From the IMG/VR virus record IMGVR_UViG_3300044699_000156, positions 1 through 36,753 of that record: a stretch of DNA of 36,753 nt; one strand, 5' to 3'. Source of the stretch: a virus. Of the stretch, positions 4,881 through 36,443 are shown piece by piece. The position numbers and the translations under genes are program-made. Below the pieces are notes generated by a model that searched no databases, had not been told where the DNA came from, and was given only the letters and a program-made list of their open reading frames with translations. Position 1 is the first letter of the stretch, and every line of letters starts with the position of its first letter.

Positions 4881-5495
4881 ATGGCTCTTACACAAGTTCC
4901 ACAAGCTAATCAAACGCTTAACCAAACCCAAGCACCGATATTGAATAACTTTGCGGTGATTGATGCTGGTTTTTCCAAGAACCATGTTGAGTTTAACAAT
5001 GGTGGTGCAACTGAAGGTATGCATAATGCAGTAAACTATGTAAATCAGAATCCCGGAGCTGTTTCACTCGCTACTGGTGCATTACAGTCAATGATATATG
5101 CAGGTTCTGGCGTACTATCTGGTGAATCATCTGCCTTGTTCATTAAAGGAGCAAACTCATTAGCTGCAACCGTAGGTGTAGAGTTTACTGCTGGATCACC
5201 TGCAAATCCTGGCTTTGCTATTATTCCACTCATATCAGCAACAACACCTAATGGGCTTGTTATAAAATGGTTTTCGTCAACGCTCGTAACAAACGTAAAT
5301 ACACCGGTTAATCTGAATAGCATAGGCCCGAATTATACAACATTGTTGAATGTTCAAGTGAGTGTAACAGGGGCAGCAGGTGATACTAACGGGATTTATA
5401 TTGTTTCAGCAGCACCTGCATCAGTTGTCTTATATCGTGCTAACAATGCCGCTGGTCCTGATAGAACGTTTTACCTGCTAACGATTGGGATTTAA
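4881..5495 (+). CDS. Fibre-like virion protein, 204 aa
   Basis: Starts after a strong AGGAGATAAAAA ribosome site. The N-terminus (VPQANQTLNQTQAPILNNF, then IDAGFSKNHVEFN) is a pattern I know from small phage tail or fibre proteins that begin by setting out sampling of a beta-structured domain. The rest is beta-rich, without cysteines, and ends in YRANNAAGPDRTFYLLTIGI, typical of a compact trimeric tip. No catalytic motif. It sits between adaptor and nozzle genes. Exact role unknown; attachment or tail-tip component is most likely. Confidence 0.65.
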   Translation: MALTQVPQANQTLNQTQAPILNNFAVIDAGFSKNHVEFNNGGATEGMHNAVNYVNQNPGAVSLATGALQSMIYAGSGVLSGESSALFIKGANSLAATVGVEFTAGSPANPGFAIIPLISATTPNGLVIKWFSSTLVTNVNTPVNLNSIGPNYTTLLNVQVSVTGAAGDTNGIYIVSAAPASVVLYRANNAAGPDRTFYLLTIGI

Positions 5496-5496
5496 C

Positions 5497-5583
5497 ATGG
5501 CAGATCGTTTTCTTATTGCACCATACGATAAAGATAATTACGCAGATCCTGGTATAATTATTAATTTAACCAAGGGGAGCGTA
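5497..5583 (+). other. Duplicated 5' end of the nozzle gene, left by HNH insertion
   Basis: ATG 5497 opens with MADRFLIAPYDKDNYADPG. The nozzle gene at 6123 opens with MASDRFFIGPYDKDSG. The two starts are homologous but diverged. The upstream copy lies directly before the HNH endonuclease and reads in frame into it, so it looks like the original nozzle start, displaced when the HNH gene together with a second, related nozzle start was inserted. It may be translated as an N-terminal extension of the HNH protein. Confidence 0.7.
5550..5558 (+). promoter_or_regulatory. Extended -10 promoter before the HNH gene
   Basis: TGGTATAAT at 5550-5558 is a perfect extended -10 element (TG-n-TATAAT), 26 nt before the HNH ATG. 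There is no clear -35. It would allow the endonuclease to be expressed independently of the late operon. Inferred from motif only. Confidence 0.45.
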
Positions 5584-6147
5584 ATGGCTAAGGTATACAA
5601 AGATAGAGTAGATACTATAGATATGATAGGAAAGCGATCTGGTAAATTATTGGTTATTAGTTTGCATAGAGATCATAACCAGAGAGGAGCTCAATGGTTA
5701 TGTAAATGCGATTGTGGAAATGAAACAATAGCTACTGGTCATTCATTGCGAAGAACTGGTTCAAAAGCTAGAAAATCATGTGGATGCTTAGCAGAAAAAA
5801 ATATAGAAGATACGGGAATTAATCGATTAATTAGTTATTACATGACGAAATGTAATAGTAAAAAAAGAGAATTTGGTTTAACGAGAAAGCAATTTATAAC
5901 CTTGATTAAAGGCAATTGCTTCTATTGTAATATTCCCCCATCTCAAGTTTTAAAAAGATTAAAAACCGACAAGATCCAAGTAGTTTATAATGGGATTGAT
6001 AGGCTTGATTCATCAATTGGGTATGTAAATGAGAATTGTGTTTCGGCTTGTAGGTATTGCAATCAGGCTAAATCGACATTGAGTATAGACCAATTTAAGG
6101 ATCATATTAAAAGGATATACCAATGGCTTCAGATAGATTCTTTATAG
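5584..6147 (+). CDS. HNH homing endonuclease, zinc-binding type
   Basis: 187 residues from ATG 5584 (AGGGGAG ribosome site). The N-terminal part holds a zinc-binding module of the kind common in phage HNH proteins (WLCKCDCGNETIATGHSLRR, then KSCGCL). The HNH part has CFYCNIPP, then NGIDRLDSSIGYVNENCVSA, then CRYCNQAKSTLS, giving two CxxC zinc pairs around the D/N-rich catalytic loop; the first HNH histidine is not obvious. Function: free-standing nicking or cutting enzyme that spreads its own gene between related phages. Its 3' end overlaps the start of the nozzle gene by 25 nt and supplies the AAGGATATACC ribosome site for it. An in-frame start at 5497 is an alternative. Confidence 0.85.
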   Translation: MAKVYKDRVDTIDMIGKRSGKLLVISLHRDHNQRGAQWLCKCDCGNETIATGHSLRRTGSKARKSCGCLAEKNIEDTGINRLISYYMTKCNSKKREFGLTRKQFITLIKGNCFYCNIPPSQVLKRLKTDKIQVVYNGIDRLDSSIGYVNENCVSACRYCNQAKSTLSIDQFKDHIKRIYQWLQIDSL

Positions 6148-8353
6148 GACCATATGATAAAGATAGTGGACTAACGAACAATGTTGTCCCATGGGCCATC
6201 CCGGATTCCGCGTTCAGTCAACTCTTTAACGCATATGTCTTTAGAGGAAGGGTAAGAAAACGATTTGGATCACGATGGATGGGACCAACACAGCTTAATA
6301 CACGGTTACGTATAGCATTGAGAACAGCAGGTGTTCTTGTTGTCACTGATGCTTTTGGTGATGCATCAGGAACAGTACCAGGAACCGTCTTTGAGCCAGG
6401 GCAGATGTTCTCAATCGGCACTACTCTTTATACGGTTGTTACTGTTGGTGTTGCCCAACCTATGCTGAAAACAGATGCAACCGTAACAGCAACTTTTAGC
6501 ACAACCAACGGAGCATATAACTTTGTTGGAGCCCCGGCATTAAGTCAGATCTATTTCTATCCAGCTCAGCCAGTTATGGGCTTATTGTCATACCAAGCTA
6601 ACACCGTAAACGATGAACCGGTTATTGCATTCGATACCCAGTTTGCCTATGAGTTTACCGCTGGTGCATGGCAACGCTTATATCTTGAGGTAGCTCCAGG
6701 AGATTCAGTATGGACTGGGAACGATCTTAACTTTTTCTGGTCAACAACATGGTTTGGTGCCAACGGTGCAACCAAAGTATTCTTTGTAACCAACAACAAC
6801 CCCAATGAACCAAATTTTATGAGAGCATTTGGGGCGGTTGCAAATACATGGCAATCATTCAGACCTCTTGTTGATGCCATCAACTATCTTAATGGTGCCC
6901 TTATCGTTCTATCGTTTAAGAACAGATTGATCTTTCTGAACACATGGGAAGGCGCAGCACAGCCGGGGGTAAACTATCAGAACAGATGCCGTTACTCACA
7001 AGTCGGATCACCATTTGATGCAGATGCATTCAGAGCAGATATCCCCGGTAAAGGTAACGCCATCGACGCATCAACCGCAGAAGCGATTGTCTCAGCAGAG
7101 TTTGTTAAAGACCGTCTCATCGTATTCTTTGAGTCATCTACATGGGAGCTGGTATACACCGGTAACCAAGCATATCCGTTTACATGGCAGCAGATCAATA
7201 CAGAGCTTGGCTGTGAATCAACGTTCTCCGTGGTACCGTTTGATAAGTTCTGCATCGGTGTGGGCAATGTGGGCATTCATAGCTGTAACGGGGCCAACGT
7301 GGACCGTATAGACCAAAAAATACCCATGGAAGTGTTTAATATACATAACACATCAGATGGTCCCATTACGGGTGTATGGCTGTACGCGACTATGAAGTTG
7401 AACAGATTTATTGGACATTCCCCGATGATACACGAACAGCCGATGTACCATATCCCAACCAAGTACTCGTCTTTGATTACACCAAAGGTAACTGGGCAAT
7501 CAACAATGATACAATAACCGTTTTTGGATACTTCTATCCACCAACAGGAGTATTATGGAGCTCAACCACGGTATCATGGTCAGATGACGACGTATGGGGT
7601 AGTGGCACATTGGGTCCACAAAACAGAACCGTCATAGCAGGTAACCAACAAGGATATGTATTTTTAATACAACCCGATGAAACAACCAACGCTTCAGTGT
7701 TACAGATCTCTAACATGACCATAAGCCCAGGATTTGTGCAGATCTTTTGTATCAACCATAATCTTGACGCAGGTGAGTACATTTATATCACCGGCATAGT
7801 AGATGATGGGGAGATCTGGAACGTTGCTTAATGGAACGGTACAGAAGGTATCGCTTATCGCGACGGTTAACTTGTTTTACATCAGCTATGATACCTCAGC
7901 GATGCCTGGTCAGTATCAAGGTGGTGGTACGATGGCACGAGTCAGCAACATCGATATCATGACCAAAGAGTATAACTTCTATGTTGACCAAGGCCGTAAT
8001 GCCTATGTATCAAAAGTTGATTTCCAGATAGATAGAACAGCAGCAGGTCAGATACAAGTAGATTTCCTGGTATCAACCAACTTGGAGAGTATGAACGATG
8101 AGAGTGGACCTCTGGGTACACAGTCTCTTTTGGGAACGGGAACATTAGATACCTTTGCGTATCCAACGTTCCCTTTGAAGCATCAGCTACACGCTTATGG
8201 CATCCTGTATATCTTCAAGCAGATGGAGAGTTTATACAGCTCCACATATTCTTGAACGATACACAGATGCGTTCGATACCCATTATGAACGCTGATTTTA
8301 CCATTCACTCGCTAATCGTGTACGCAACCCCTAGCTCATCCCGCATGCAATAA
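6123..8353 (+). CDS. Tail nozzle / tail tubular protein B-like (three frameshifts)
   Basis: About 743 residues once three single-base errors are bridged: near 7375 (to AVRDYEVEQIYWTFPDDT), near 7830 (to LNGTVQKVSLIATVNLFYI) and near 8180 (to FEASATRLWHPVYLQADGEF), stop at 8351-8353. The start MASDRFFIGPYDKD and FRGRVRKRFGSRW, then SFKNRLIFLNTWEG and KDRLIVFFESSTWELVYTG, fit the beta-propeller nozzle that forms the end of the short tail (T7 gp12 and P22 gp10 type). Its place after the adaptor and the length agree. The reading is continuous at protein level on both sides of each break, so the gene is most likely intact in the phage. Confidence 0.75.
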
Positions 8354-12749: not shown

Positions 12750-13250
12750 TTATTTAGACTGTTTTTTATCTACCAAATCAATTAACTCAATAGCTTTATT
12801 TTCTGCATAAACGTAGGCTTCCAAAATCCTGTTTATATAAGTCTTCAATGATATATTCCTTTTAGCAGACCAGACTTTTAAATTTCTATGAAGATCTGAA
12901 TTAATTATCACATTAAGAACTTGCTTAGGAATTACATCTTCAATACGTGAGTCTTTATTTTCATAAGTATTGTATTTAGGCTTATGCTTTTCTATGAGAC
13001 TTCTTTCAAGGTCCTTGGCTTGCCCTATCGTTTTTGTAACTATGGACTCAACTATTGAGCTTGCGTTTATAATAGCCGATGCTTTTAACATAGATGTTCT
13101 ACTAGAAAGATGACTCATACATCTTTGTCGTAGATTTTTGGCTGACCCAATGTATATAAAATTACCTTCAGCATTTTTAAAGATATAAACCCCACAATCT
13201 TCTGTAAGATTGGTTATCTGAAGCGATAATTGCTTAAGTGATTCTTCCAT
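12750..13250 (-). CDS. GIY-YIG endonuclease with C-terminal ribbon-helix-helix domain
   Basis: 166 residues from ATG 13250, chosen because AAGGAGATAGTT precedes it; an in-frame ATG 21 nt upstream has no ribosome site. GIY-YIG nuclease domain at residues 19-100: GVYIF (20-24), FIYIGSAKNLRQRC (31-44) and LERSLIEKHKPKYN. Residues about 111-147 read as an RHH DNA-binding fold: a strand (VLNVIINSDLHRNLKVW) followed by two helices (SLKTYINRILEAYV). Family knowledge: GIY-YIG homing enzymes usually bear other DNA-binding tails, and RHH proteins bind short tandem operators. The gene leads a minus-strand cassette inside the plus-strand late region and has its own promoter with a repeat array. Function: homing endonuclease, possibly self-repressing. 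Confidence 0.85.
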   Translation of the reverse strand: MEESLKQLSLQITNLTEDCGVYIFKNAEGNFIYIGSAKNLRQRCMSHLSSRTSMLKASAIINASSIVESIVTKTIGQAKDLERSLIEKHKPKYNTYENKDSRIEDVIPKQVLNVIINSDLHRNLKVWSAKRNISLKTYINRILEAYVYAENKAIELIDLVDKKQSK

Positions 13251-13268
13251 AACTATCTCCTTGGATTT

Positions 13269-13316
13269 CAAAGAACTATTAAAATAACTATATAATTAAC
13301 TATATCTAAAACTATA
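13269..13316 (-). promoter_or_regulatory. Four 12-bp tandem repeats, likely operator
   Basis: On the minus strand four consecutive 12-bp units start TATAGTT, TATAGTT, TATAGTT and AATAGTT (plus-strand blocks 13305-13316, 13293-13304, 13281-13292, 13269-13280). The spacing is exact. The second unit contains the -10 box of the promoter for the GIY-YIG gene and the others cover the spacer and transcription start. The layout fits cooperative binding of an RHH protein, and the gene downstream encodes one. Confidence 0.6.
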
Positions 13317-13326
13317 CAAATGTCAA
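13299..13326 (-). promoter_or_regulatory. Sigma70-type promoter for the GIY-YIG gene
   Basis: TTGACA (plus-strand 13321-13326 as TGTCAA), 16-bp spacer, TATAGT (13299-13304). A perfect -35 and a near-perfect -10. The start would be near 13292, giving a leader of about 40 nt to the ATG at 13250. Confidence 0.75.
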
Positions 13327-13435: not shown

Positions 13436-15109
13436 ATGGCAATCGCACGTACACGACAGAATACCATTTACGGGTTTCCTAATCCGTTAGCAAATCAGTT
13501 CCCAGAACCCATTGTAATGAACCGTAACCCAACAACGTTTGACCAAGGTGAAATTGGACAGACATGGGTCAGACCAGACAACAACACGGCCTTCATCTTG
13601 ACCTCATCGGTTGCTGGTGTTAATACCTGGTCTACATCCCCTGTTGTCCCGGTTAACCCACTAAACCTTGATGTTATTAATAACCTTACCGTCGGTGGAA
13701 CAGCAGTCGTAACCGGCAATATAACAACAGCCGGTACACTTCTTGGGGATGCTCTTAATATCACCAACAATGCGGTAATCGGTGGAACCTTGGGGGTCAC
13801 TGGAGTAACAACATTTACTGGTGATGTTGTTGTAAATGGTGATTTTGATATCAACAGTGGAGATACCGTAACCATCCAGTCCAGTGCAAACAGTCCAGCA
13901 GCAGTACGTCTGTTTGCATCCAACGCAGCTGGTGGTATCACCATGGATGCTGGTACCCAAGGGTATACCATAAGCACAGCAACCAATGGCCCATTCAACG
14001 TACAAAATGGAACCGGAACCATCACGCTTAATGGTACCGGTGCCCAAGCAATCAACATCGGTACGCAAGCAGCTGTTGTTAAAACGATAGCGATCGGCGG
14101 TACGGGCGCAAACGTCATTACCATCGGCAATACCCAAACAGCTGGATCATTCAGTCTTGGTGCAGCAATGACCACGGGCACCATCAATATTGGTGGAACC
14201 GGTCTTCAAACTGGTACGGTAAACCTTGCAGTCGGAACGGGACTTCAGACCATTAATCTTGGTACAGGTGGAACAGGAGCCAAGACCATTAACATAGGTA
14301 CTGGCGCAGCTGTTGCTAATCAGATCAACCTTGGTGGCACAGGCGCTAATGCCATATTTATTGGTGATACGCAAACTGCTGGAAGCATCTCCCTTGGTGA
14401 TGCTATGACTACAGGTACAATCAACATTGGTGGTACTGGACTTCAAACTGGAGATATGGATATTGCAGTTGGTTCTGGTGATCAGAATATAAGCATCGGT
14501 AATAATGCCTTAGGTGTTAAAACCATCGAAATTGGTAATGATGTAGCAGGCTCAACTGTTGTGCTTCGAGGAGGCGCTGGAATTGGAAGTGCAATTGTTA
14601 TTGATGATGGTTCTTTTGTTATTAGTACCGGGACTGGAGCACTCCAGGTATCTAATGATGCTGCGGATACAGTGGTCGATATATCAACCGGCGCTGGCGT
14701 TAAAACCACAAGTCTTGGATCAACCACTACAACTTCAACAACAACCATTAATGGTGGAACAGCTGGTGGAATAGTATTAAATGGTGGTGGTAATGTAACC
14801 ATGGTACCAGAAACCGATACACAAGCATCACCTACAGCAACTTCAGTCATTGATGCTAATGTTGGAGTAGCTACTTTTACGGGCTTTACCACAGCATCAG
14901 CAGCTTCACAGGTGTTTACTATCACCAATGCCGAGATCGCTGTGACATCGGGTATCTTTGTAACTGCTCATAACGAAGGCGCTAACGATGCACAGATGAC
15001 GGTTATGCGTGTTAAAGCAGCCGCTGGATCCATGGAAGTAACGCTTAAAAATAATGGTGCAGCAGCGCTTAATGGTAACGTTGTGATATCTTTCTGGGTG
15101 ATAAGCTGA
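13436..15109 (+). CDS. Tail fibre protein 1, 557 aa, repeat-rich
   Basis: The N-terminus (RQNTIYGFPNPLANQFPEPI, then IGQTWVRPDNNTAFIL) is a probable anchor to the tail. Residues about 75-480 are a beta-helix-like array of short repeats (TINIGGTGLQTG, KTIAIGGTGANVI, QTAGSFSLGAAMTTG). The C-terminal 70 residues (QVFTITNAEIAVTSGIFVTA .. VVISFWVIS) look like a compact receptor-binding or trimerisation tip. Composition is rich in glycine, threonine and asparagine with almost no cysteine, as usual for trimeric fibres. An identical 30-nt leader is shared with the gene at 16137. An HNH gene follows directly. Confidence 0.8.
   Translation: MAIARTRQNTIYGFPNPLANQFPEPIVMNRNPTTFDQGEIGQTWVRPDNNTAFILTSSVAGVNTWSTSPVVPVNPLNLDVINNLTVGGTAVVTGNITTAGTLLGDALNITNNAVIGGTLGVTGVTTFTGDVVVNGDFDINSGDTVTIQSSANSPAAVRLFASNAAGGITMDAGTQGYTISTATNGPFNVQNGTGTITLNGTGAQAINIGTQAAVVKTIAIGGTGANVITIGNTQTAGSFSLGAAMTTGTINIGGTGLQTGTVNLAVGTGLQTINLGTGGTGAKTINIGTGAAVANQINLGGTGANAIFIGDTQTAGSISLGDAMTTGTINIGGTGLQTGDMDIAVGSGDQNISIGNNALGVKTIEIGNDVAGSTVVLRGGAGIGSAIVIDDGSFVISTGTGALQVSNDAADTVVDISTGAGVKTTSLGSTTTTSTTTINGGTAGGIVLNGGGNVTMVPETDTQASPTATSVIDANVGVATFTGFTTASAASQVFTITNAEIAVTSGIFVTAHNEGANDAQMTVMRVKAAAGSMEVTLKNNGAAALNGNVVISFWVIS
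14107..14463 (+). repeat. About 237-nt coding repeat within fibre gene 1
   Basis: The reading GANVITIGNTQTAGSFSLGA from about 14107 recurs as GANAIFIGDTQTAGSISLGD from about 14344, both followed by AMTTGTINIGGTGLQTG. The second unit is only about half as long before it diverges. The nucleotide copies have drifted mainly at third positions, so this is an old internal duplication kept for structure. Confidence 0.6.
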
Positions 15110-15112: not shown

Positions 15113-15141
15113 TTGATATAATTAATCCAAACCCATATAAT
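15113..15141 (+). promoter_or_regulatory. Sigma70-type promoter inside the HNH hairpin
   Basis: TTGATA 15113-15118, 17-bp spacer, TATAAT 15136-15141. The -10 lies in the 5' arm of the hairpin at 15133-15190, and the start would fall near 15148, removing that arm from the transcript. Confidence 0.65.
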
Positions 15142-15190
15142 ATCCTATCATTACAAATCTATTCAATTTAATCGATAGGATATTATATGG
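15133..15190 (+). promoter_or_regulatory. RBS- and start-codon-sequestering hairpin of the HNH gene
   Basis: CCATATAATATCCTATC (15133-15149) is a perfect 17-bp inverted repeat of 15174-15190, with a 24-nt loop. The 3' arm contains the GATAGGA ribosome site and the ATG at 15187. Read-through transcripts from the late operon should hide the start; transcripts from the internal promoter lack the 5' arm. Established parallel: T4 homing endonucleases such as I-TevI use an RBS hairpin with a promoter inside it. Confidence 0.85.
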
Positions 15191-15816
15191 TTGGAACTTC
15201 AAAGTGTCCTGTATGTGGCATAGTTTTCAAATGGCGAAAGTCAAAAGATGAAAAACCAGCAACATATTGTAAGAAAAAATGTATGAATAGAATGGTTCAT
15301 ACGTGGAATCTTAAGGGCAGATTTAAATGGGATACCGCACCCGAAGACGAAAAGATTAAGAAACTAAAGGAACGTTTTGAAAAATATGTTGTTAGGCAAG
15401 ATGGATGTTGGGACTGGAAAGGCTGTCTTCATAAAAGTGGATATGCTCCGATGAACTTCTATAACAATAAGCAAAAAAATGCTCATATAGTTTCATGGAT
15501 CTTGCATAATGGTGATATTCCAGATTCATTACTGGTATTACATAAATGTGATAATCATAAATGTACTAATCCAGAACATTTATTTTTGGGTACTCATAAA
15601 TCCAATACTCAAGATATGTTAAACAAAAAAAGGAATCATCCTGCTTTTGGGGAAACTCATACACGTGCAAAGCTAACTACACAACAAGTTAGAGAAATAA
15701 AAAACAAACTTGCTATGGGAGTAACTATGAAACGATTATGTGATGATTATAATATGAGTAAGGGCGCTATGTATGCTTTAAAACATGGCATAACATGGAA
15801 GCATGTAATTATATAA
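15187..15816 (+). CDS. HNH homing endonuclease with zinc and HTH modules, 209 aa
   Basis: The N-terminus has a zinc-knuckle-like module (CPVCG, then YCKKKC). The central HNH domain has GCWDWKGCLHKSGYA, AHIVSWILHNGDIPDSLLVL, and HKCDNHKCTNPEHLFLGTHK, matching the HNH_3 pattern in which the HxCxxxxCxNPxHL segment binds metal. The C-terminal 45 residues (LTTQQVREIKNKLAMGVTMK, then LCDDYNMSKGAMYALKHG) form a probable helix-turn-helix for site recognition. It lies between fibre gene 1 and the small gene at 15841. Expression is apparently controlled by the start-codon hairpin. Confidence 0.9.
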   Translation: MVGTSKCPVCGIVFKWRKSKDEKPATYCKKKCMNRMVHTWNLKGRFKWDTAPEDEKIKKLKERFEKYVVRQDGCWDWKGCLHKSGYAPMNFYNNKQKNAHIVSWILHNGDIPDSLLVLHKCDNHKCTNPEHLFLGTHKSNTQDMLNKKRNHPAFGETHTRAKLTTQQVREIKNKLAMGVTMKRLCDDYNMSKGAMYALKHGITWKHVII

Positions 15817-15840: not shown

Positions 15841-16074
15841 ATGGAAGCACATGAAGTACGTTACATCCAGCTCATTGATAAACACGGTGAAAATGGCGAG
15901 TTTGCTTATGTTCTTAAGGTGCCATTAAATGCACCATGGGAAACAGCTCATGCAGCAGCAGCCAACTTTGGTGCTGCACTTAAAGAGCTGGAAGAAAAGA
16001 ACAAGAAGGCCATTGAAGAGGCCCAAGCAGCTCAAGCAGAGCCTGAACCAGTAGCTGCAGAGGTAGTTGCTTAA
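15841..16074 (+). CDS. Small acidic protein, 77 aa
   Basis: Clean reading frame after an AAAGGAACACTC ribosome site. It opens EAHEVRYIQLIDKHGENGEF and contains VLKVPLNAPWETAHAAAANF, then ends in an alanine/glutamate-rich helical tail. Small proteins of this type often sit between fibre genes. Possible fibre assembly partner; function unknown. Confidence 0.6.
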   Translation: MEAHEVRYIQLIDKHGENGEFAYVLKVPLNAPWETAHAAAANFGAALKELEEKNKKAIEEAQAAQAEPEPVAAEVVA

Positions 16075-19763: not shown

Positions 19764-21599
19764 ATGTCTAATGTGTTATTAACTGGTACCCTCCCGTATG
19801 TGGGTACCAAGGCAGATAGTCCACCAAATCTATGGTATCGTAACAGAAGACCACAAGATGGTGGTATCGATATCGATTATTCAGTTGGTGATTTATGGCT
19901 GTATACAGACCCCTCCCCGGGGTCTAATGTCCAGGAGTTGTACTTTTTGGCATCCCTTAAAGGGAACAGTGCATCACTGGGTAGACCACTAGCCAAATGG
20001 AATCTGGTATCATCTGGTTCTGTCGGTGATATTAGTTCTATTTTAACAGACACGGGTGTCGTGGTGCCAGATATCAGCGGACAAGTAAGTTTGCTTGCTG
20101 GTGAGAATACCAATACACAAGTTGGGGGTACGCCATCAACAGTGCTGGTCAACCTGAATAGAACCATCCATTGGCCATCAACCAATGCAGCTGGAGATGA
20201 AGGTGTTATCTATCTTGATGCCTTTGCAGGTGTTGGTGGAGATCGGTTTCTTCATAACTATGGCGATGGTGGGGGTTCTGATAATAATACCTTCTTGGGA
20301 ATCGATGCAGGTAACTTCACTATGGGAGTTGATGCACGAAATAATATTGGAATAGGTACCAGGTCACTTGCGCAAAATGTATCAGGAGCAAGTAATACCG
20401 CTGTTGGTGTAAATACATTATTTGAGCTTACCTCTGGTGAAGATAATATTGCTATAGGCAGAGATGCATTGTCAGAGTTGACATCAGGTTCCAACAACAT
20501 AGCCATCGGATCAGAAGCAATAAAAACTGCTACCATATCCAGTGACAACATAGGTATAGGATTTGGGGCTCTTGATGTTGACACACTGGGAGCAGGTAAC
20601 ATTGCCATCGGTACTAATGCCCTTGGATCTAATACGGGAGGTAGCAACAACATAGCTATTGGACAGAACGCATTAGTAAGTTCAGCTGGTGGTGCTAACT
20701 CTATAGCTATTGGTATTAATGCACTTACCGATGAAACCTCAGGACTCCAAAACACAGGTATTGGCGGAGAAGCACTCTTTGCAATCACCACAGGCACCAA
20801 CAACACAGCAGTTGGATTTCAAGCAGGTAACGCTTTAACCACAAGCGACAGCAACAACGTCTGTATCGGGAACATTGGAATTCCTGGTTCTAATGATACT
20901 AACTGGATAGGCGAAGAAGGTCTCAACCCAGGAAAGACCTATATAACCCAGATTTATAACATTCAACTTAATGATGTAGCGCACCCAGCTCATCATGGCT
21001 TTGTGTTGGCAGCTAATGATGAAAACCAGATCGGTGAAGTAGCACTCGAATCATCAGATGGATCAGTAAATATCGATACGATTTCTAATCCTGGCATTAT
21101 AGACTTTACGGTTTCTGGTGGTGGAGGTGGTAGTACTAATCCGATATCGTTCTCAGCTATCCAGGTTACGGATACGGGTAATCAAGTTGATGGCTCTGAA
21201 TATGCCATGGGTTCGGGAGTTATACTTACCGAGATCTTTGATGTTACCAATAACTTCTATCCCGGAGATGGAACCGGCGGAGCGGCGACGTTCACTGCAC
21301 CGGTTACTGGTAAGTACTACATGGAGTTTTATGTATTTACTACAACAACAGCCGCTCTTTCAGTAATTTCCATTGTTGTATCTGGTGATGTATCTACAGC
21401 AAGAACCTATAAACTTGATGGTTCTCTTGCTGGTTCTGGAGCTGGTACATTTCATATTTACTCCACCGTTGCAGCTATGACCATAGGAGATGTAGCAACA
21501 TTTACTATTACAGGAACCAGTGGTGGAACCAATGACTGGAAGGTGCTTGGTGATGGTGGAGACAACCTAACTCAACACGTATATCAGGCTTCCTCTTAA
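19764..21599 (+). CDS. Tail fibre 3 with YadA-like repeats and C1q-like tip, 611 aa
   Basis: Clean frame that starts 2 nt after the previous stop. The N-terminus (YVGTKADSPPNLWYRNRRPQ, then DIDYSVGDLWLYT) is probably the attachment part. Residues about 190-385 are YadA-head-type 14-residue repeats such as GASNTAVGVNTLFEL, GSNNIAIGSEAI and GGSNNIAIGQNALVS. The last 150 residues (NPISFSAIQVTDTGNQVDGS .. FYPGDGTGGAATFTAPVTGK .. YYMEFYV) fit a C1q/TNF-like jelly roll, a common receptor-binding tip. No S74 domain here, in contrast to the gene before it. Confidence 0.8.
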   Translation: MSNVLLTGTLPYVGTKADSPPNLWYRNRRPQDGGIDIDYSVGDLWLYTDPSPGSNVQELYFLASLKGNSASLGRPLAKWNLVSSGSVGDISSILTDTGVVVPDISGQVSLLAGENTNTQVGGTPSTVLVNLNRTIHWPSTNAAGDEGVIYLDAFAGVGGDRFLHNYGDGGGSDNNTFLGIDAGNFTMGVDARNNIGIGTRSLAQNVSGASNTAVGVNTLFELTSGEDNIAIGRDALSELTSGSNNIAIGSEAIKTATISSDNIGIGFGALDVDTLGAGNIAIGTNALGSNTGGSNNIAIGQNALVSSAGGANSIAIGINALTDETSGLQNTGIGGEALFAITTGTNNTAVGFQAGNALTTSDSNNVCIGNIGIPGSNDTNWIGEEGLNPGKTYITQIYNIQLNDVAHPAHHGFVLAANDENQIGEVALESSDGSVNIDTISNPGIIDFTVSGGGGGSTNPISFSAIQVTDTGNQVDGSEYAMGSGVILTEIFDVTNNFYPGDGTGGAATFTAPVTGKYYMEFYVFTTTTAALSVISIVVSGDVSTARTYKLDGSLAGSGAGTFHIYSTVAAMTIGDVATFTITGTSGGTNDWKVLGDGGDNLTQHVYQASS

Positions 21600-21600
21600 C

Positions 21601-22450
21601 CGGTTCCAATGATCCCATCCAGATCATTGGCGCAGATGCAGGTTCAGCAACGGGACAACCGTCAATATCGTCGGTGGTAATAACATCAACACCATAGCAG
21701 CAGCAGATACATTAACAATCGATGTTTCTGGAACAACACAACATGCCGTACAGATTGGTGATGCAGCTGGTGCATTAAATTCATTGCCTTTGGGTACCGC
21801 TGGGCAGGTATTACCATACCAAAAACAAAAAAATGGTTGCTGGGGTTGATCCAAGTTGCGAAGCTAATAGTATCTTTTGCTAGCAACCCATTTTTGTGCG
21901 TATCTTCCACCGTTGTGAATGTAGCATACAGGCATCAACGGCGTTAATGCATTCCGGTTCAACGCTAGCACTTACGGAAGACTTTTTTTGACCCAGGTAT
22001 TGACTCTGACACAGGCAATGGTGCGGATAGGGTGTTTTTTTCCTGCGCCAGCCGGACGGAAATTTATTGAGTTTACACTCAGTGCGTTTGTAACAGTGCA
22101 TTCCCCAATAATTTCCCCATTTTCTTATTACCAGGCCTGGAGAGTCTTCTTTCAAGGATCCGTGCAGTCACATTTGTTACTAATCAGTTTAAGCAATCCA
22201 AACAGAGCTATCGTTAAATGAGGTAGGTAACCGTCTCGATTTGAACATGTTAGGATTACCTTTTAGTCTCTTTCTGACATAGCCCGGCAATGGTGACGGT
22301 TCAGTGTATATTCAACGTTTGTATCTGGAATGAGAATCGCCTTACCTGACACTTTGGTCACAGATTGAATATACTATGGACTTGCCTTCAAGGAGTGGTA
22401 CACACAAATATGCCAACCCGGGCGGTTGTAGCCCTGGGGATAAACTGACA
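21601..22450 (+). pseudogene. Fourth fibre-like module, no start codon, broken
   Basis: Directly after the stop of fibre 3, the reading PIQIIGADAGSATGTTVNIV then INTIAAADTLTIDVSGTTQH and AVQIGDAAGALNSLPLGTAG is plain fibre shaft sequence, related to the repeats of fibre 2, but has no ATG and is broken after about 21835. Farther on only short pieces look fibre-like (for example GNGDGSVYIQRLYL near 22290). It could be a real fibre gene damaged by sequencing error or an assembly join of misplaced repeat reads. Confidence 0.45.
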
Positions 22451-22454
22451 GTTG

Positions 22455-22600
22455 CTAGATGCCCCCGATGTAGGGCTTTTTGATTTTTCTTAAAGTTGCT
22501 ATACGTTTTTTTATCGCATGTGAAGCTGCATCAAGATCCGAACCAAATATGCCTTGTTCACTAATATGATCTTCATAGTCTACTGCTTACATCATTCATT
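22455..22600 (-). CDS. C-terminal end of an unidentified minus-strand gene
   Basis: On the minus strand VDYEDHISEQGIFGSDLDAA continues SHAIKKRIATLRKIKKPYIGG to a stop at 22455-22457. The stretch is charged and clearly coding. Upstream the frame is lost in errors. It converges with the fibre region and marks the downstream end of the leftward early operon. Not recognised. Confidence 0.45.
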
Positions 22601-24490
22601 TTTTGTACTCAAGCACAATCATAGTTTAAGTTTTTTTTTCATCATGTTCTCATCTCATCAAATATGATAATGATATCATCTCTTTAGAGAGATCATCTAA
22701 CAATACAGCAAAGATAAATCACCATTGGGCTATTCTTATAGATCAATGTATCAGACGTCAGGGCATGGCACCAGTGCATCTGTTTACCACCAATTGAAAC
22801 AGGGTTCTTGGAAGTTATAATTCTCGATCTCCTTTTAAGTTATGGATATTTGGCATGGCTTCAATAATTATGTACTCTATGTGAACAAGGATCAACTGGA
22901 TTTCGCTGAGTCTTCATTATCATGTTCCCTAGTTCCACAATTATGGTTGTTCCTTGCAGACATAAGAGTCAGGATGCAAATGATATATTCTGAATGATAT
23001 CTAAAAACTAAACAACTCTTATGGTAATGATCGTAGTTTTTATCACTCATCGTGTCCTCTGTGTCGTAAACGTCATTATGTTAACGGTTTAAGACTTGCC
23101 TTTAACTTAGAGCAACTGTTCTAACGAATTGATATTTTCTATCGCAAGCTCGGCATAAGTCGTAACATTAACGCACATTAGATATAGGTTTTTCTATTCT
23201 TACATAAGCTCAAACGATAATCTTCATCCCAAGTCACATGTACCGTAATGGAGTTTATGCTGCTCTTCAACACGCTCGAACCTTTTAAGAATCATCAAGT
23301 CTGATTAAGACAGAAATCAACGGTTTATTTCTTTAAGCTTCACAATCCCTTCAGGTGTTTCATGTTCTAGGTCTAGGTCATTACATGATTGTGTCATTAA
23401 TCGTAATATCTTTAAGTATTTATAGTTTCCTCTTTGGTTCATTTGCTTCTACTCAACTGTGGAATTTTGTACACCTTAATCAAATAAATATGCATACGCC
23501 AGCATACAACGAAGTACAAGAACAGAAAGAACATATCAAGCTTGGATCATTCTGGTGGTTCCTTTTTAAGCCATCATAAATAACGTGACATGTAGATCTA
23601 AAAGAACTCTTCTTTGATTGCCTTTATTAGAACGTAGAAGTCCGATGGCAATAAAAGAAAGGACCATCCTCAAGATTCTGATAACCATATTTGAATATCG
23701 ATAAGAATCATGACGGTTTGCGATCAAATTTAAATTTAATCATTCTGGTTGACACTTGGTGTGATCTGTCACAGTGAAATCACATCGCCAAAATAGTTTC
23801 TTTGCATGTTGGCTGGCATTTACCACGGGCAATCGGGGATGGGATCTTCTTAATGAAAGGACTGCATCATAGAGGGATCTTGTGAGCACAGCTTGCCATA
23901 AGGATTCTGCGAATCATTCGAGGTACACAAGATTTATTTTGTTCCTAGAGGATATTGGTACCTAGTAATTCTTTTAAGATTTATTTTTTTCACGAATCCT
24001 TTAATCTTGAGTAATGCTCGCATTTTATCAGCGATAGTCTTCTTAAGGCTTCTATAATTTTTTTCTTATGGTACACCACAAGATTTTAAATCCATTTCCA
24101 TTTATCCAACCATACCAGTCTTCCCAATATCCAACGAAACCCACTCGTCTCTCAGATGCATACGTAGAAGTACAGTGTATCATACAGATGATCCCAACGC
24201 TCTTGCACAGCGTGGCTGTAGCTTCGAGGGCGCCTGGATTTTGAATAAAGTGGCTATGCTTTCCGATAGCTTTACAGGCACGCAATACGCATCTCTACAT
24301 CGGATTTGGCCCTCCGCCTACCACGTCAGGCGTAGAATTGTTTGGTATGGATGTTTGAGCAACTTGGCTTATTTCAGTTGGTTGTGCTTTGGCATCGGTA
24401 GCCCGTTACGAGTATATCCTATAAACATGTATTACTAACAAAACCGTCTATTCATTTCTTTCCCGTATATACTCGGCTGACAATCGTGCC
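22601..24490 (-). other. Damaged leftward coding region, no gene assignable
   Basis: No clean frame is convincing on either strand. Short minus-strand pieces look coding: IGGKQMHWCHALTSDTLIL (about 22790-22735), AELAIENINSLEQLL (about 23160-23115), ILKRFERVEEQHKL (about 23290-23245), and a linker-like TDAKAQPTEISQVAQTSIPN (about 24395-24340). They suggest several early genes running leftward, broken by frequent single-base errors. The plus-strand frame at 23355-23579 has a hydrophobic start but no ribosome site or neighbours in its direction. Confidence 0.4.
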
Positions 24491-24679
24491 CTAAAAAATA
24501 ACCAACGGTTTTAGCCTTGGGGCTAGAAATTCAATGTGCTCATCTGCATCACACCCACTACAATACGCTTCCAGTGAGTTCTTGTATGGGTATATCTTCT
24601 CAGTACCCGGGGTGATGGCTATCTCCACATCACCCACTGCATTAATACTCATACCATTAAGATTTACGTTTGTTACCAT
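24491..24679 (-). CDS. Hypothetical early protein, 62 aa
   Basis: Starts after an AGGAATAGG ribosome region as MVTNVNLNGMSINAVGDVEI. A short beta-type segment is followed by a CSGCDADEH stretch. Unrecognised. Last clean gene of the leftward operon. Confidence 0.5.
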   Translation of the reverse strand: MVTNVNLNGMSINAVGDVEIAITPGTEKIYPYKNSLEAYCSGCDADEHIEFLAPRLKPLVIF

Positions 24680-24687
24680 GCGTTATC

Positions 24688-24960
24688 CTATTCCTCTAGT
24701 ATTCCCCACGATTCCGGGATGTATTTCCAAGCAGTAACACCCCCTATGATTTGATTCCCGCTGCTCTTGTATAACCATACTGGACCGATTAACCTTTTAA
24801 CTTTATACAGACTCGCCAGGGTTTCTAGCCCACCAGCATATTTCACAAGGACCGTATCACCTTCTTCTGGGAAGAAGCTTTTGTTTTCAGCCCTGGGTTG
24901 AGATGTTACACAAATCCACTCAAAGTTTCTTGCTCTAATAAGGTCTTGATTAGCTTCCAT
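24688..24960 (-). CDS. Hypothetical early protein, 90 aa
   Basis: ATG 24960 is chosen for its AAGAGG ribosome site; a longer reading begins at 24999. It overlaps the end of the preceding gene by 11 nt. Contains RARNFEWICVTSQPRAENKS, FFPEEGDTVLVKYAGG and TAWKYIPESWGILEE. The middle looks like a small SH3-like beta-barrel. Unrecognised. Confidence 0.55.
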   Translation of the reverse strand: MEANQDLIRARNFEWICVTSQPRAENKSFFPEEGDTVLVKYAGGLETLASLYKVKRLIGPVWLYKSSGNQIIGGVTAWKYIPESWGILEE

Positions 24961-25189
24961 GATACCTCTTAAGACAATCATCAATAAACTTCTCATCACT
25001 CAGCTTGTGGGAGAACGCTTTAAGCAGAAAATCACCAACAAGCTCCCAATACGGATGCTCTTCATCTTCGCTTAATTGGATGTAATATTCTTCACCAGCG
25101 CCCTCTTCATCTTTGACACGTACTATTTGTCTATAGGGGGCTTTATCGTATCGTGTTGGGGGAAATACTCTGTCCATTGAAGCGTTCAT
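24950..25189 (-). CDS. Hypothetical early protein, 79 aa
   Basis: Starts after a strong GGAGGTAAATTC ribosome site. Acidic, with GAGEEYYIQLSEDEEHPYWE in the middle and a helical C-terminus. No known motif. Start overlaps the stop of the next gene upstream, in line with one tightly packed operon. Confidence 0.55.
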   Translation of the reverse strand: MNASMDRVFPPTRYDKAPYRQIVRVKDEEGAGEEYYIQLSEDEEHPYWELVGDFLLKAFSHKLSDEKFIDDCLKRYHGS

Positions 25190-25482
25190 GAATTTACCTC
25201 CGGGTTATCAGCTGCTTTTTGTATATCTTTTATGAACTGATCATACCCATTAGCTAAGTTAACAGCATGAGTATGATGCATACCAATAAAGTACAAGAGG
25301 GGATGGAGCTGAGCGAACGTATCTTGGATGGCAGTAACCACCCGTATCACCTCAGGCATATTAGTGTCATTGAGCTGTTTACCCCGGTGTTTATCCAGCT
25401 CCATATGCAGATCAAAATACTCTTTAGTCAGCTCTTGCTTGAGGGTATCGATCTCTTTGACCAGTGTTTCCATGCGGTTCAT
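25186..25482 (-). CDS. Hypothetical helical protein, 98 aa
   Basis: ATG 25482 (GGAG ribosome site) overlaps the stop of the previous gene in a TAATG junction; a longer reading from 25545 has no ribosome site and overlaps that gene. Mostly helical: METLVKEIDTLKQELTKEYF and VIRVVTAIQDTFAQLHPLLY. Perhaps a coiled-coil partner protein; not recognised. Confidence 0.55.
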   Translation of the reverse strand: MNRMETLVKEIDTLKQELTKEYFDLHMELDKHRGKQLNDTNMPEVIRVVTAIQDTFAQLHPLLYFIGMHHTHAVNLANGYDQFIKDIQKAADNPEVNS

Positions 25483-25706
25483 TATATCGACTCCACATTG
25501 GCGTCCTCGAACTCCAAAGCGTCCAGACCCTCGGGGATCGAACATTTCTTACATGACTCACAATACGTAACGGTTAAATCCAACGGATGGATGGTTGTTA
25601 GTACTTTACGTTCATGTGTTTTATTCATCGATATGACATGGATACACCAAATACCCATAACCAACGTCATACAAATAAACGCTGCTATCCATTCCTTCAT
25701 TACCAT
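25482..25706 (-). CDS. Small single-pass membrane protein, 74 aa
   Basis: MVMKEWIAAFICMTLVMGIW begins one transmembrane helix (about residues 5-26), followed by a cytoplasmic or periplasmic tail with CESCKKC, a possible metal-binding cysteine group, and an acidic end. TGGAG ribosome site. It lies directly behind the ERF gene. Function unknown. Confidence 0.6.
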   Translation of the reverse strand: MVMKEWIAAFICMTLVMGIWCIHVISMNKTHERKVLTTIHPLDLTVTYCESCKKCSIPEGLDALEFEDANVESI

Positions 25707-25717
25707 GATATCTCCAG

Positions 25718-26323
25718 TTACTCTTTACCCATACCAAGCATAGCCCGGTACATATTCTTCATACAATACGTAATGGCACCACCACGTTTCTTTTGGAACT
25801 CTTTTTCATTGGGCATTGTATCCCATTCCATCAAGAGACAATGCGATGAGAGCCATTCTCCCGATGAGTGTATCAACTTCATCTCTATGGTACCCTCACC
25901 ATGTTCATTGTTACGCACATCAAAAGTAACTGCAAGTTCGTTGGCTTCCAACGCTGGTACTGCTACTTCCATAAGATCCCCCAGATCAGCAGACTTGGAG
26001 TTACCCATACCAACGTTACCGGTGGGAGCAGCTAACTTCATGGAGCCCTGGGCTTTGCTTAACGCCATCGCTATTTTACCAATGGTTGCGCTTTGGGATT
26101 CTTTAACAACGTATGTCTTGGTGATACGTGGTTGTTCAGAGACTGCGGTCATCTGATCTGCTAAAAGATCTAATCGTTCAAGAACACCCTTGAAGGCTTT
26201 AGCCATATTCTCAACACGACCGTCTGAGACAGACAACCGTCCAGCAAGTGCATCAATCTCATGTTTAAGGTCAAGAAAATGAGTAAACATGTTCGGGGCA
26301 ACGTCTAAGTTCTTTTCTTCCAT
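25718..26323 (-). CDS. erf: ERF-family single-strand annealing protein
   Basis: 201 residues. The N-terminal 60 residues are helical and variable. The core (about 78-198) fits the ERF superfamily: SATIGKIAMALSKAQGSMKL, SADLGDLMEVAVPALEANEL, IHSSGEWLSSHCLL and GGAITYCMKNMYRAMLGMG, the last being the family signature (GSAxTYxRRYxLxxxLGI-like). Role: anneals complementary single strands during phage recombination and concatemer formation. It is the second gene of the leftward operon, overlapping the HTH gene by one base. A RusA-type resolvase on the rightward side would complete a small recombination set. Confidence 0.85.
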   Translation of the reverse strand: MEEKNLDVAPNMFTHFLDLKHEIDALAGRLSVSDGRVENMAKAFKGVLERLDLLADQMTAVSEQPRITKTYVVKESQSATIGKIAMALSKAQGSMKLAAPTGNVGMGNSKSADLGDLMEVAVPALEANELAVTFDVRNNEHGEGTIEMKLIHSSGEWLSSHCLLMEWDTMPNEKEFQKKRGGAITYCMKNMYRAMLGMGKE

Positions 26324-26535
26324 TACATTCCCTCTCGTTTTAAGTACTCATCGATAATACGTAACGTCTTTGGTTTGGTGACCGTCTTGTTATTGCGGTC
26401 CATAAAGATCATAAAGGTGTTGTAGTGTATGCCGATCTCTTTGGCAAGCTCACCACCAGAGATTATACGCTTGGTGATAATCTCTTCCAGTTTGAGGCGC
26501 CATGGCTCAGTATCTATGGGGAATCGTGTATTCAT
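26323..26535 (-). CDS. Small HTH protein, putative repressor or Cro-like regulator
   Basis: 70 residues: LKLEEIITKRIISGGELAKE then IGIHYNTFMIFMDRNNKTVT and LRIIDEYLKREGM. The GGELAKEIGIHYNTFMIFM segment reads as a helix-turn-helix of the Cro/XRE kind, with the recognition helix about residues 38-48. First gene of the leftward operon, just downstream of the divergent promoters, which is where an early-region regulator is expected. No ligand or cleavage domain. Confidence 0.6.
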   Translation of the reverse strand: MNTRFPIDTEPWRLKLEEIITKRIISGGELAKEIGIHYNTFMIFMDRNNKTVTKPKTLRIIDEYLKREGM

Positions 26536-26597
26536 GGGTTCTTTCGTGGTTATTGTTTAATATAGGGGCTAGTCCGAGCTACGCTCCTCCTGCAATC

Positions 26598-26625
26598 AGT
26601 ATACCATGTAACAATTATTTAACAA
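26598..26625 (-). promoter_or_regulatory. Leftward sigma70-type promoter
   Basis: On the minus strand TTGTTA (26625-26620), 16-bp spacer, TATACT (26603-26598). The leader carries a short inverted repeat GAGC-TAC-GCTC at 26576-26586. It lies 4 bp from the -35 of the rightward promoter, so RNA polymerases should compete. Confidence 0.6.
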
Positions 26626-26629
26626 GTGC

Positions 26630-26658
26630 TTGACACAATATAAATAATGTTTTATAGT
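26630..26658 (+). promoter_or_regulatory. Rightward sigma70-type promoter
   Basis: TTGACA 26630-26635, 17-bp spacer, TATAGT 26653-26658: consensus -35 and near-consensus -10 at ideal spacing. Start near 26665, giving a leader of about 40 nt before ATG 26704. Confidence 0.85.
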
Positions 26659-26703
26659 TGGGTCATGAAGTTAATGTTTTAACCTTATGACGGAGAACCA
26701 TCA

Positions 26704-26907
26704 ATGATCTCACAACAAATTAAAGCGCTTGAAAAAGAGCTTAAAGATACCAAGTTCAAGAGAGACTTTGCCATTGAGTCAGCATCTCGTCTTGAACAAG
26801 ACATAGCCGATCTTGAACAGCAGATGGAAGACATCATGCATGACCTTAAAAGACTCAAGCCAGAAGAAGACAGAAGATCACATTCATCCCTTAGATGGAG
26901 TAAATAA
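26704..26907 (+). CDS. Small coiled-coil protein, 67 aa
   Basis: Starts after an ACGGAGAACC ribosome site. Nearly all heptad-like helix: ALEKELKDTKFKRDFAIESA then LEQDIADLEQQMEDIMHDLK, followed by a basic tail. First gene of a two-gene unit with a consensus promoter and its own terminator. No known family; partner of the exported coiled-coil protein next to it is a fair guess. Confidence 0.65.
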   Translation: MISQQIKALEKELKDTKFKRDFAIESASRLEQDIADLEQQMEDIMHDLKRLKPEEDRRSHSSLRWSK

Positions 26908-26909
26908 CC

Positions 26910-27326
26910 ATGATTAAACGCATACTATTAACTTTACTCATTAGTGCAGCAGGTGCTGCACAATTAAACGCACAACTCTTTGGTCACTCATCAAAGAAAG
27001 TAAACGCATTACGTACAGCTCTTGAGCAGATCAAGATCAAATACGATAACGCACTCATACAGATAGCAAATCTCGAGCTAGCGCTCGCTGGAGCAATAAA
27101 AGATGTAAACACTCACGAACAACGAATCAACGTGCTATCGTCAGAATTGTTGGTCTCTCGCACAGAGGCAGAGCAACTCAAGTCTATGGATGAAAACCGT
27201 ATGCAAGACTTTGAGAAACACGTCAGCCGACTGCTTGAAGCAACCAAGAGACTGGAAGACTTGGAGAGGGCCATTGATGAAATGTCTGAACTCCCTTCGC
27301 AGATCTTTGGCAACCAAGATAAATAA
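26910..27326 (+). CDS. Exported coiled-coil protein, 138 aa
   Basis: MIKRILLTLLISAAGAAQLN is a clear signal peptide, with likely cleavage after LNA at about residue 21. The rest is one long coiled coil (KVNALRTALEQIKIKYDNAL, LSSELLVSRTEAEQLKSMDE, LLEATKRLEDLERAIDEMSE). No lipobox, so a soluble periplasmic protein is more likely than a spanin. It starts 2 nt after the previous stop. In phages, such self-contained units often alter the host envelope or block superinfection; that is inference. Confidence 0.7.
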   Translation: MIKRILLTLLISAAGAAQLNAQLFGHSSKKVNALRTALEQIKIKYDNALIQIANLELALAGAIKDVNTHEQRINVLSSELLVSRTEAEQLKSMDENRMQDFEKHVSRLLEATKRLEDLERAIDEMSELPSQIFGNQDK

Positions 27327-27358
27327 GATATACTGAAACGTCTCCGTCACAGACAAAC

Positions 27359-27399
27359 GCCCTGCAACATTAAGATGGTATGTTGTGGGGCTGTTTTAT
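27359..27399 (+). terminator. Strong intrinsic terminator
   Basis: GCCCTGCAACA (27359-27369) pairs with TGTTGTGGGGC (27381-27391), 11 bp with two G-U pairs, followed by TGTTTTATT. It ends the two-gene coiled-coil unit. Confidence 0.85.
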
Positions 27400-27422
27400 T
27401 AGCATAGGAGTTAGGGGAATAT

Positions 27423-27731
27423 ATGGCGATCAAGAGAAAGTATCATGGGTGCTGAAATTGGTGGGTTTAAGGTCCTTGAAAAAACACGTTTTTACTCACC
27501 ACAGTTTTTTGATGTGATATGTCTATACGGCAATGAGCACACCAAGGATCAGCTTCAGTTCTGGATGGTTCATGATGGTAAGGAAAAGAGAATGTTTCGT
27601 TAACTTCAGAGATGATACCTTTAAAAAGATCAGTCAGACTGTTTTCTTTCAAGAAATATGGTATCTGGCAGCCCCTAGAACAAATGTTCGCCAATATTGG
27701 TGAGTTACTATTCTTGCTGGAAAGTGGATAG
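27423..27731 (+). CDS. Small hypothetical protein (two frameshifts)
   Basis: ATG 27423 has an AGGAG-containing leader. MAIKRKYHG must shift by one base to join AEIGGFKVLEKTRFYSPQFF and DVICLYGNEHTKDQLQFWMV; a second shift near 27600 leads to MIPLKRSVRLFSFKKYGIWQ and PLEQMFANIGELLFLLESG, stop at 27729-27731. The two halves read well as protein, so errors rather than decay are likely. Not recognised. Confidence 0.45.
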
Positions 27732-29390
27732 TGTTATCGCTCGTTTAGATGTGTTTTGTGATTGTGGTGTGGGGAAGGGTCTTGAGCTCTTCGACCACTG
27801 AGACGTGTTCAATCTCAGGCCAATTATGCAAAAGACGAAATAAAGCAACCCCCGGGCTGTGTCGCATCGCGGGAACTAAGATAATTTGATTTTTAAAAGC
27901 TAGTTTAAAGGGCCTCTTTTTACGGATTGCCCTTACTACACAAGACATACAGCACAAGGGTAAGAGATAGTTAGTGAAGCGAATTTAAATAAGGTCTTGA
28001 CAGTATTCTTCATATATCTACCATCCTCTTTCCCTTATTGTACCTTGAGATTAACACCCATTTACCTTATTTACTGCATTATAGCTTGCCGGCAGATCGA
28101 GTTTATCAGAGGAGCGCAAAAGTGCTTGAAACTTAATCTAAACGTTTCACAGCGGCTTTTTTCAATGAAAACGTATACTAGCGTTCAAACGCCGTATCGT
28201 CCAAGAGAAAATTTCTAAAAGTTCACAGAAAAATACTGGGTTCTAAGATGTATTCAAAGCTACAACATTAAACGACTTTTTCACAAAGTTAGCCCACCTT
28301 TCAGATACGCCCCCCCCCCCCCCCAGAACAATGCACTTAACTACCTTATTTATATGGCGCAAACGAGGTACCATGGCTATTTGTTAGCCAATCGACGATC
28401 GCTCGTTATGTGGGGTGTGTACGAGAGTGGGTCTGTAAAAACACTAGTAACCTATGTTGACGATGTTAGGGCTTTTGGTATTTCTAAGCTGCCAGAAAAT
28501 ATCTGTTATGGCTTCAAGCCAAATTGGTGTACATGAATCAGCCCTAAGTTTTTTAAGCCAGAATCTTTCAGGAGCTGGTTTCCCGTTTTAAGCTCCGGAG
28601 GGACTTAAGAAAAAAAGTTCCACCACTATTCAAGTAATGAGATAGATATTAAAACAATATCAAAGTACCACTAGTAAGATAGATAACCAAAAAGAAGAGA
28701 GGAAAAACAATCGATGTCATGTCTGGTCCATCCCAGACCTACTGAATTTGAGAAAGGTGTTAGGAAATGTCGTCATTCTTCGTCGATTACGACACAACCT
28801 TCGGTTAGTGGAGTTATTAAAGCAAATATAACTAACCAACTGGGGAGAGATCTTTGTATCTGCCTTCCCTCTAGAGGCTTATAACCGTGTGGCAAGACCA
28901 CTTCTTGTCCGTTCCACAATCCACGCCATGACCCGTTTTAAAGAAGTTTGTGAAAGTTATGCGTTGATGGTGTTCCACCAGGGCGTGAGACCCGCATGGC
29001 GGGAGATGTACGCCCAACAACGTCTTCAGGGGCCAACCAACCGATGCAAAAGATGCTATGTTTCGGTTTCCCCAAAAGGCAGCTGAGGCGCTGGGGGGAT
29101 CGCTCGCGCACTTGTCCAACCAAAGTAGAAGCTCTCCCTCGTCTTGAACACGAAAGTTTTATTCTCAGGCACTACAGTACCGCCGTTCTTGATGATGACC
29201 AAGCACTACAAGGACGCAATGCTTCACGGCATATGCGTGTAGCTGTTGCAGCCATCGAGAAAACTTGCTAGACTTATTGGAAATGGGAAATCCCGGGACG
29301 TACTTCAAATAAGTGTTTTACAACTTTGCCGGTCCGAGGAGGTGTTTATTGATGCATTTGACCATGGTGCTTTGAAAGGGGAGCTGCCTT
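27732..29390. other. Error-rich region, no gene assignable
   Basis: Frames are short on both strands. A run of 15 C at 28310-28324 and many small indels suggest unpolished sequence. Pieces such as MAQTRYHGYLLANRRSLVMW (28354, +) and MSCLVHPRPTEFEKGVRKCR (about 28714, +) may be coding but lack support. From position in the genome this should hold early replication genes. I see no RNA gene or promoter that stands out. Confidence 0.4.
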
Positions 29391-29775
29391 ATGAATATCA
29401 ACCACAAACTGTTTATGTCATCGTGGTTGGACCCATACCGCTCGCCAGGCACGACATATACATAATCGAGTATACGATTCACAATAGCACTCAACTGAAT
29501 CAAACGCGTATCACCACTCAGAGGCCAACATGGCGACAAACCTTTACTTTCTGGCCCCGACTTCATCTTGATGTTCAGTTCTATATGCCCATCGCGGCCA
29601 CTTCCCGTAAAAAAGCTTTCTATCATGCGTCTTCAAAAAGCCAAACCGATCTGGATAATTATAATTAATGGATTTGTGATATTGCCAATTACAATATTAT
29701 CTAATGATGATATGTATTGGATCCAAGATAACTGCAACTAAAATGTTCGACAATACACCTCGAACTGGAATTTAG
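29391..29775 (+). CDS. rusA: RusA-family Holliday junction resolvase (broken by indels)
   Basis: By joining frames: VYVIVVGPIPLARH near 29409-29450 (the substrate-binding start of RusA proteins), RVYDSQ at about 29468-29485, LHLDVQFYMPIAATSRKKAF then YHAS, DLDN at 29648-29659 (the conserved metal-binding Asp region), a second Asp pair in SNDDM near 29700, and KITATKMFDNTPRT near 29728-29766. This order matches RusA: VxGxPxPxxRPR, beta-strand, H..KPDxDNxxK, DD, and K.. strand. Role: cuts Holliday junctions in branched replicating phage DNA before packaging. At least four single-base errors; the true gene is probably intact. Confidence 0.7.
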
Positions 29776-32420: not shown

Positions 32421-32529
32421 CAAGGACGAGATGCGTTACAACAGAAAACTCGCTAACTCTTGTATTTCAGACCGTTGCATTCTACGCTGGTAAAACCTTC
32501 TTTAAGGATTAGCTTAACAAGGGACACTC

Positions 32530-34632: not shown

Positions 34633-34671
34633 TGTGGTTTTCTTATTAACTCTCTTTTCGGAGGGCCGTTT

Positions 34672-36383: not shown

Positions 36384-36443
36384 AAAAAAGACACGTAAAA
36401 AAACGAGCATAACTCTCAGTCTTAGTGTTCCTTTCTACCTTTT

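Follow-up and report, generated by a model that had tools for sequence, protein, structure and literature searches.

How can an endonuclease gene be expressed when its ribosome-binding site and start codon both lie in the 3' arm of a long hairpin, and what is a promoter doing in the 5' arm of that same hairpin? The question is raised by an HNH_3 gene in the window, by which we mean the whole stretch of DNA that was analysed, a complete virus record of 36,753 bases whose left half holds virion and tail genes. We consider it likely that 15113-15816 is a free-standing HNH homing endonuclease cassette with insulated expression, silent on late read-through transcripts and active from its own sigma70-type promoter (Table 1). 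On read-through RNA from the upstream tail operon, the 5' arm would pair with the Shine-Dalgarno (SD) sequence and the AUG, and initiation would be blocked. The sigma70-type promoter, with its -10 box in the 5' arm, would start a short RNA near 15147-15150, and because such an RNA lacks the 5' arm, its ribosome site should be free. Strong late transcription would then yield little endonuclease, and host polymerase at the cassette's own promoter a modest amount, probably early after entry. The start site, the translational block, the timing and the homing activity are what we infer, early rather than late timing being suggested by the class of the promoter and by the neighbouring genes.

Table 1. 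Features of the endonuclease cassette and of the genes on either side of it.
Feature	Position	Strand	Basis or remark
Upstream gene, 557-aa repetitive tail-fibre-like protein	13436..15109	+	ORF; homologues in the same place in related phages
-35-like element TTGATA	15113..15118	+	11/12 jointly with the -10 box, spacer 17
Outer stem extension, 5' half TCCAA, 5 bp	15126..15130	+	pairs with 15191-15195 in the fold
5' arm of hairpin, CCATATAATATCCTATC	15133..15149	+	inverted-repeat search
-10 element TATAAT, within the 5' arm	15136..15141	+	consensus match
Predicted transcription start	15147..15150	+	about 7 nt past the -10 box
3' arm of hairpin, GATAGGATATTATATGG, containing SD and start codon	15174..15190	+	inverted-repeat search
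Shine-Dalgarno AGGA, 6 nt 5' of the ATG	15177..15180	+	sequence; inside the 3' arm
HNH_3 endonuclease gene, 209 aa	15187..15816	+	Pfam PF13392 E 2.7e-12; phrog_1872, phrog_59
Small gene, structural operon resuming after the cassette	15841..16074	+	ORF; the operon of HNH-less relatives goes on here

The HNH protein scores 46.6 bits against HNH_3, for which the curated cut-off is 24.8. Its alignment shows an N-terminal CxxC...CxxxC segment, the HNH core and a C-terminal helix-turn-helix-like segment, and H119, N128, H131 and N140 are invariant among four aligned relatives. The match to zf-His_Me_endon is weak, and no solved structure was matched by sequence. With the I-HmuI-like phage HNH homing endonucleases it shares the HNH_3 core, above the cut-off, and the PHROG HNH families; the N-terminal CxxC...CxxxC segment sets it apart from them. 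The gene upstream is the probable source of read-through transcripts into the HNH gene; its product has no PHROG match of its own, and its neighbours are virion or tail proteins.

The repeat, the promoter match, the opening energies, the recurrence and the covariation were all established by computation. That a perfect 17-bp inverted repeat carries the ribosome site and ATG in its 3' arm, as an earlier note had claimed from the sequence, was confirmed by repeat search, folding and shuffling. The arms enclose a 24-nt loop, and the ATG (15187-15189) lies within the 3' arm. The hairpin folds with an MFE of -29.5 kcal/mol (z -5.4), which none of 200 shuffles equalled, and if loops of up to 60 are allowed, perfect repeats reach 17 here, whereas in 12 shuffled versions of the 8 kb around it the longest were 8-12. 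No other inverted repeat with arms within 150 nt was found around the HNH gene. The proposed TTGATA-17-TATAAT promoter of sigma70 type was likewise borne out: its score is the highest between 12 and 20 kb, tied with that of a GIY-YIG gene, the sigma70 class denoting a consensus match only. The start had been placed inside the 5' arm, which holds for the -10 box but less exactly for the predicted start, which falls at the arm's 3' edge and would leave no more than 3 nt of that arm in the short RNA. Opening the SD-AUG region is computed to cost 21-22 kcal/mol in RNAs beginning 80-120 nt upstream, as against 5.7-5.9 kcal/mol for those starting at 15147-15150. Read-through and short RNAs differ in the same sense in four further phage loci: 16-19 versus 4 kcal/mol in L002, 12-15 versus 2.6 in L024, 33 versus 6 in L039, and 27-29 versus 4.4 in L100.

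The GIY-YIG endonuclease gene (12750-13326, minus strand) is divergent from the tail gene and has the promoter TTGACA-16-TATAGT; both of the best sigma70-like promoters of the 12-20 kb region thus precede putative homing endonuclease genes. When folded, the GIY-YIG gene showed no hairpin over its ribosome-binding site. A gene on the opposite strand, divergent, with a top promoter and hairpin-free is as insulation would predict, although a single case is only suggestive. A second HNH-like gene (5485-6147) starts with MADRFLIAPYDKD..., a beginning that resembles the N-terminus, MASDRFFIGPYDKD..., of the next virion gene (6123-7517), as if it had been inserted near the start of the virion gene, for which a new start was then re-created farther downstream. 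This gene, folded from its start at 5485/5497, also has no hairpin at the ribosome-binding site. Long open reading frames are almost absent from 27400-36753, and also from 1-1190 and 21600-24490; no near match to 21500-36753 was found among phages or plasmids. Such an ORF-poor part is odd for a phage and is possibly a non-viral flank or an assembly chimera. Rfam and tRNA scans of the whole window gave no matches, a nucleotide search of the region gave none among isolated phages, and bacterial genomes searched with the tail protein revealed no host. In 12 related records a search for phage RNA polymerase (PF00940) found no match, the control genomes being equally without one.

The nearest homologue, L002, has an HNH protein 38% identical in amino acids at the same site behind the same tail gene. 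Its start lies in a 15-bp perfect hairpin (ATAGGTATCCTTATA/TATAAGGATACCTAT) whose 3' arm again contains both AAGGA and ATG; its promoter, TTTACA-16-TATCCT, is weaker than that of the window but in the right position. The two hairpin sequences are unrelated; structure has therefore been kept and sequence has not. As expected of a free-standing homing endonuclease, the gene occupies a site that is empty in phages otherwise collinear: the window and L002 have it, and L017, L007, L006, L004 and L003 do not. These five HNH-less relatives have no start hairpin at the site, which implies that the hairpin comes with the gene. What follows the tail gene in them is another conserved intergenic hairpin, which ends within or close to AGCTATGCTTA and has no clear T run, perhaps a terminator or a processing site, and L002 keeps the same one downstream of the endonuclease. 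As the origin of the window's start hairpin it was rejected, since L002 carries both. By its HNH core, the window's gene is a close tree neighbour of L174, L018 (= L002) and L292, all of which bear hairpins. Homologues keeping the gene without the repeat, which the earlier note had named as grounds for giving up the idea, do make up the majority of HNH_3 genes, but these tree neighbours are not among them.

Scans of viral contigs yielded a set of 236 distinct HNH_3 genes, for which 1117 other genes of the same loci served as controls; start codons were picked by rule. If a hairpin is any helix that covers at least part of the SD sequence with its 3' arm, at a shuffle p<=0.005, 20 of the 236 HNH genes have one, as opposed to five of the 1117 controls (Fisher 8e-12), an approximately twenty-fold excess of SD-overlapping helices. 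At p<=0.01 there are 22 hairpins, all among the 112 proteins of at least 180 aa and none among the 124 shorter ones; most HNH_3 genes, including nearly all below 180 aa, are without one. Loop length varies between 3 and about 48 nt, the arms share no sequence relationship, and stems range from several of only 8-12 bp to long, near-perfect ones of 14-19 bp directly behind highly expressed genes. For instance, five genes with 46-73% mutual amino acid identity (L108, L153, L233, L253 and L329) all have hairpins with unrelated arms, and on the HNH-core tree the trait changes at least 19 times for 26 positives. Dozens of phage genes share the arrangement without sharing its sequence. Among isolated phages with HNH_3 genes (13 regions, the upstream sequence scored where a start could be placed), no comparable hairpin was seen. 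Outside the HNH_3 set, the gene at L128:1514 (MKTCGECKQDKPLSEF...) has a hairpin of the same type, 15 bp including G.U, with TATAGT in the 5' arm. To judge by eye, its product is similar to HNH/endonuclease VII-type proteins, a hint that further families of endonucleases share the arrangement.

Promoters were located relative to these arms in two ways. Thirteen of 26 genes with hairpins at p<=0.02 have a sigma70-like site whose start falls past the midpoint of the 5' arm but before the 3' arm (p<0.05 against shuffles), compared with 4.7% of control genes and 12% of hairpin-free HNH genes. In an unconstrained test, which takes the best promoter in the 160 upstream bases and still counts a start as between the arms when it intrudes no more than 2 nt on the 3' arm, 16 of 25 hairpin genes have it there when 4.5 would be expected; the other nine have no good promoter in place. 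Two further scans supplied 76 new genes as a held-out set, in which 11 have a hairpin and two (L468 and L478) are near-identical. For promoter position it is an independent test: in nine of the 11 the best promoter starts between the arms (1.6 expected). This set was fetched by hairpin-bearing queries, and its hairpin frequency is therefore not unbiased. Because of the kinship among these genes, significance is overstated wherever they are counted as independent; the sequences of their arms, however, show no relationship.

Compensatory base changes, which the earlier note had suggested looking for in relatives, were found in two groups. In the L207 family (six sequences, 69-82% amino acid identity) the hairpin aligns with 89.6% of cells paired; three pairs are changed on both sides, and the covariation exceeds that of all 500 shuffles and all slid versions. 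L421 and L426 have about 20 identical bases before the hairpin, and yet their arms change in step. Transition mismatches in the stems, counted so as to favour neither kind, comprise 20 G.U and five A.C (binomial p 0.004). Together, the compensatory changes and the excess of G.U over A.C point to a structure that acts as RNA. The T4-like logic of a silent long RNA and a translatable short one, as originally suggested, gains support from these changes, the folding energies, the architecture of L002 and the recurrence.

The same evidence bears on the unlikely alternative that the repeat acts as DNA, namely as an operator overlapping the promoter and bound by the endonuclease or another repressor. 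The overlap of promoter and repeat suits this idea, and there is a precedent in I-TevI, which occupies an operator that overlies its late promoter and so represses itself (PMC2988022). Nevertheless, the predominance of G.U is not expected of a DNA palindrome, and the varied loops, the unrelated arms and the enrichment of helices over the SD sequence all argue for RNA. Distinctly unlikely is a hairpin that serves as a signal for RNase III or other processing, splitting the endonuclease from the capsid or tail message with a cut that may free the ribosome site. The longest stems, right behind highly expressed genes, are what such a signal might look like, but the idea makes no prediction of a promoter start between the arms, and it sits poorly with the shortest stems. 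Very improbable is constitutive damping of translation by the hairpin alone, in AT-rich DNA that matches a promoter by accident. Promoter-like sites are indeed common (12 sigma70-like sites found in 8 kb, 17 expected), whereas in both gene sets they are placed with respect to the arms in a way that chance would hardly give, and one that controls rarely show. A chance or ornamental repeat without function is scarcely credible, being contradicted by the shuffle tests, the recurrence and the covariation.

An insulated cassette, the reading that we prefer, also fits where these genes lie. Hairpin-bearing genes begin a median of 68 nt (quartiles 61-77) past the preceding stop codon, whereas the distances of the others vary widely. 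The preceding gene encodes the major head protein for 12 of 24 hairpin genes, as against at least four of 56 long HNH genes without a detected hairpin (Fisher 4e-5); for half of the controls this comparison covered the first 25 families out of 27. Two members of the comparison set behind capsid-sized genes, L187 and L129, do have hairpins, which the SD criterion missed. In the held-out set, six of the ten genes with a scanned upstream gene are behind a major head protein gene, and in the window and its nearest group a tail-fibre-like gene precedes the HNH gene. In known phages, transcription of capsid and tail genes is late and heavy, and protection from read-through would matter most behind such genes. 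The silence during late read-through posited by the earlier note agrees with this position, the silence itself being what we infer, and early expression by host polymerase is plausible from the promoter match. Whether HNH genes of many unrelated phages have repeatedly evolved a cassette of RBS hairpin and sigma70 promoter, the -10 box being within or adjacent to the hairpin's 5' arm, directly behind major capsid or tail genes, on early and silent late in a reversal of the T4 programme, seems to us evenly poised. If true, a trick of a few T4-type endonucleases would be a general, repeatedly evolved way to live in heavily transcribed phage operons. It would explain endonuclease genes behind capsid genes without over-production, and the arrangement would serve as a sequence signature for spotting likely homing cassettes.

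In known systems, a hairpin that hides the ribosome-binding site and has an internal promoter is described for I-TevI, I-TevII, I-TevIII and segB of T4 and for mobE of Aeromonas phage Aeh1 (PMC2988022). The likeness is one of architecture, and no sequence relationship is claimed. There, as in the computed fold of the window, a stable hairpin covers the ribosome-binding site and AUG in the long transcript; an internal promoter gives a short RNA without the 5' part, and the window and its relatives show a consensus match there with a predicted hairpin-free transcript; and the gene encodes a homing endonuclease, free-standing in mobE and segB. The internal promoters of T4 are described as of the late or middle phage class, lying inside early or middle units (PMC2988022), which delays the enzyme. 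The window and its relatives differ in matching sigma70 -35 and -10 elements instead of a phage late or middle promoter, and such a promoter within an operon of late structural genes probably means the opposite order to that of T4. The literature, as far as it was covered, held only T4-type precedents, and no description of a sigma70 version behind capsid genes was found. Outside phages, the transposase genes of IS10/Tn10 and IS50/Tn5 have a sigma70-type promoter at the element's edge, and read-through RNA folds over the ribosome-binding site while the element's own RNA does not. These are transposon ends with terminal repeats and a transposase, as opposed to an HNH homing endonuclease in a phage operon, and there is no homology. 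The window's family thus works like the T4 group and like IS10 and IS50, standing outside the former by the class of its promoter and apart from the latter in not being a transposon.
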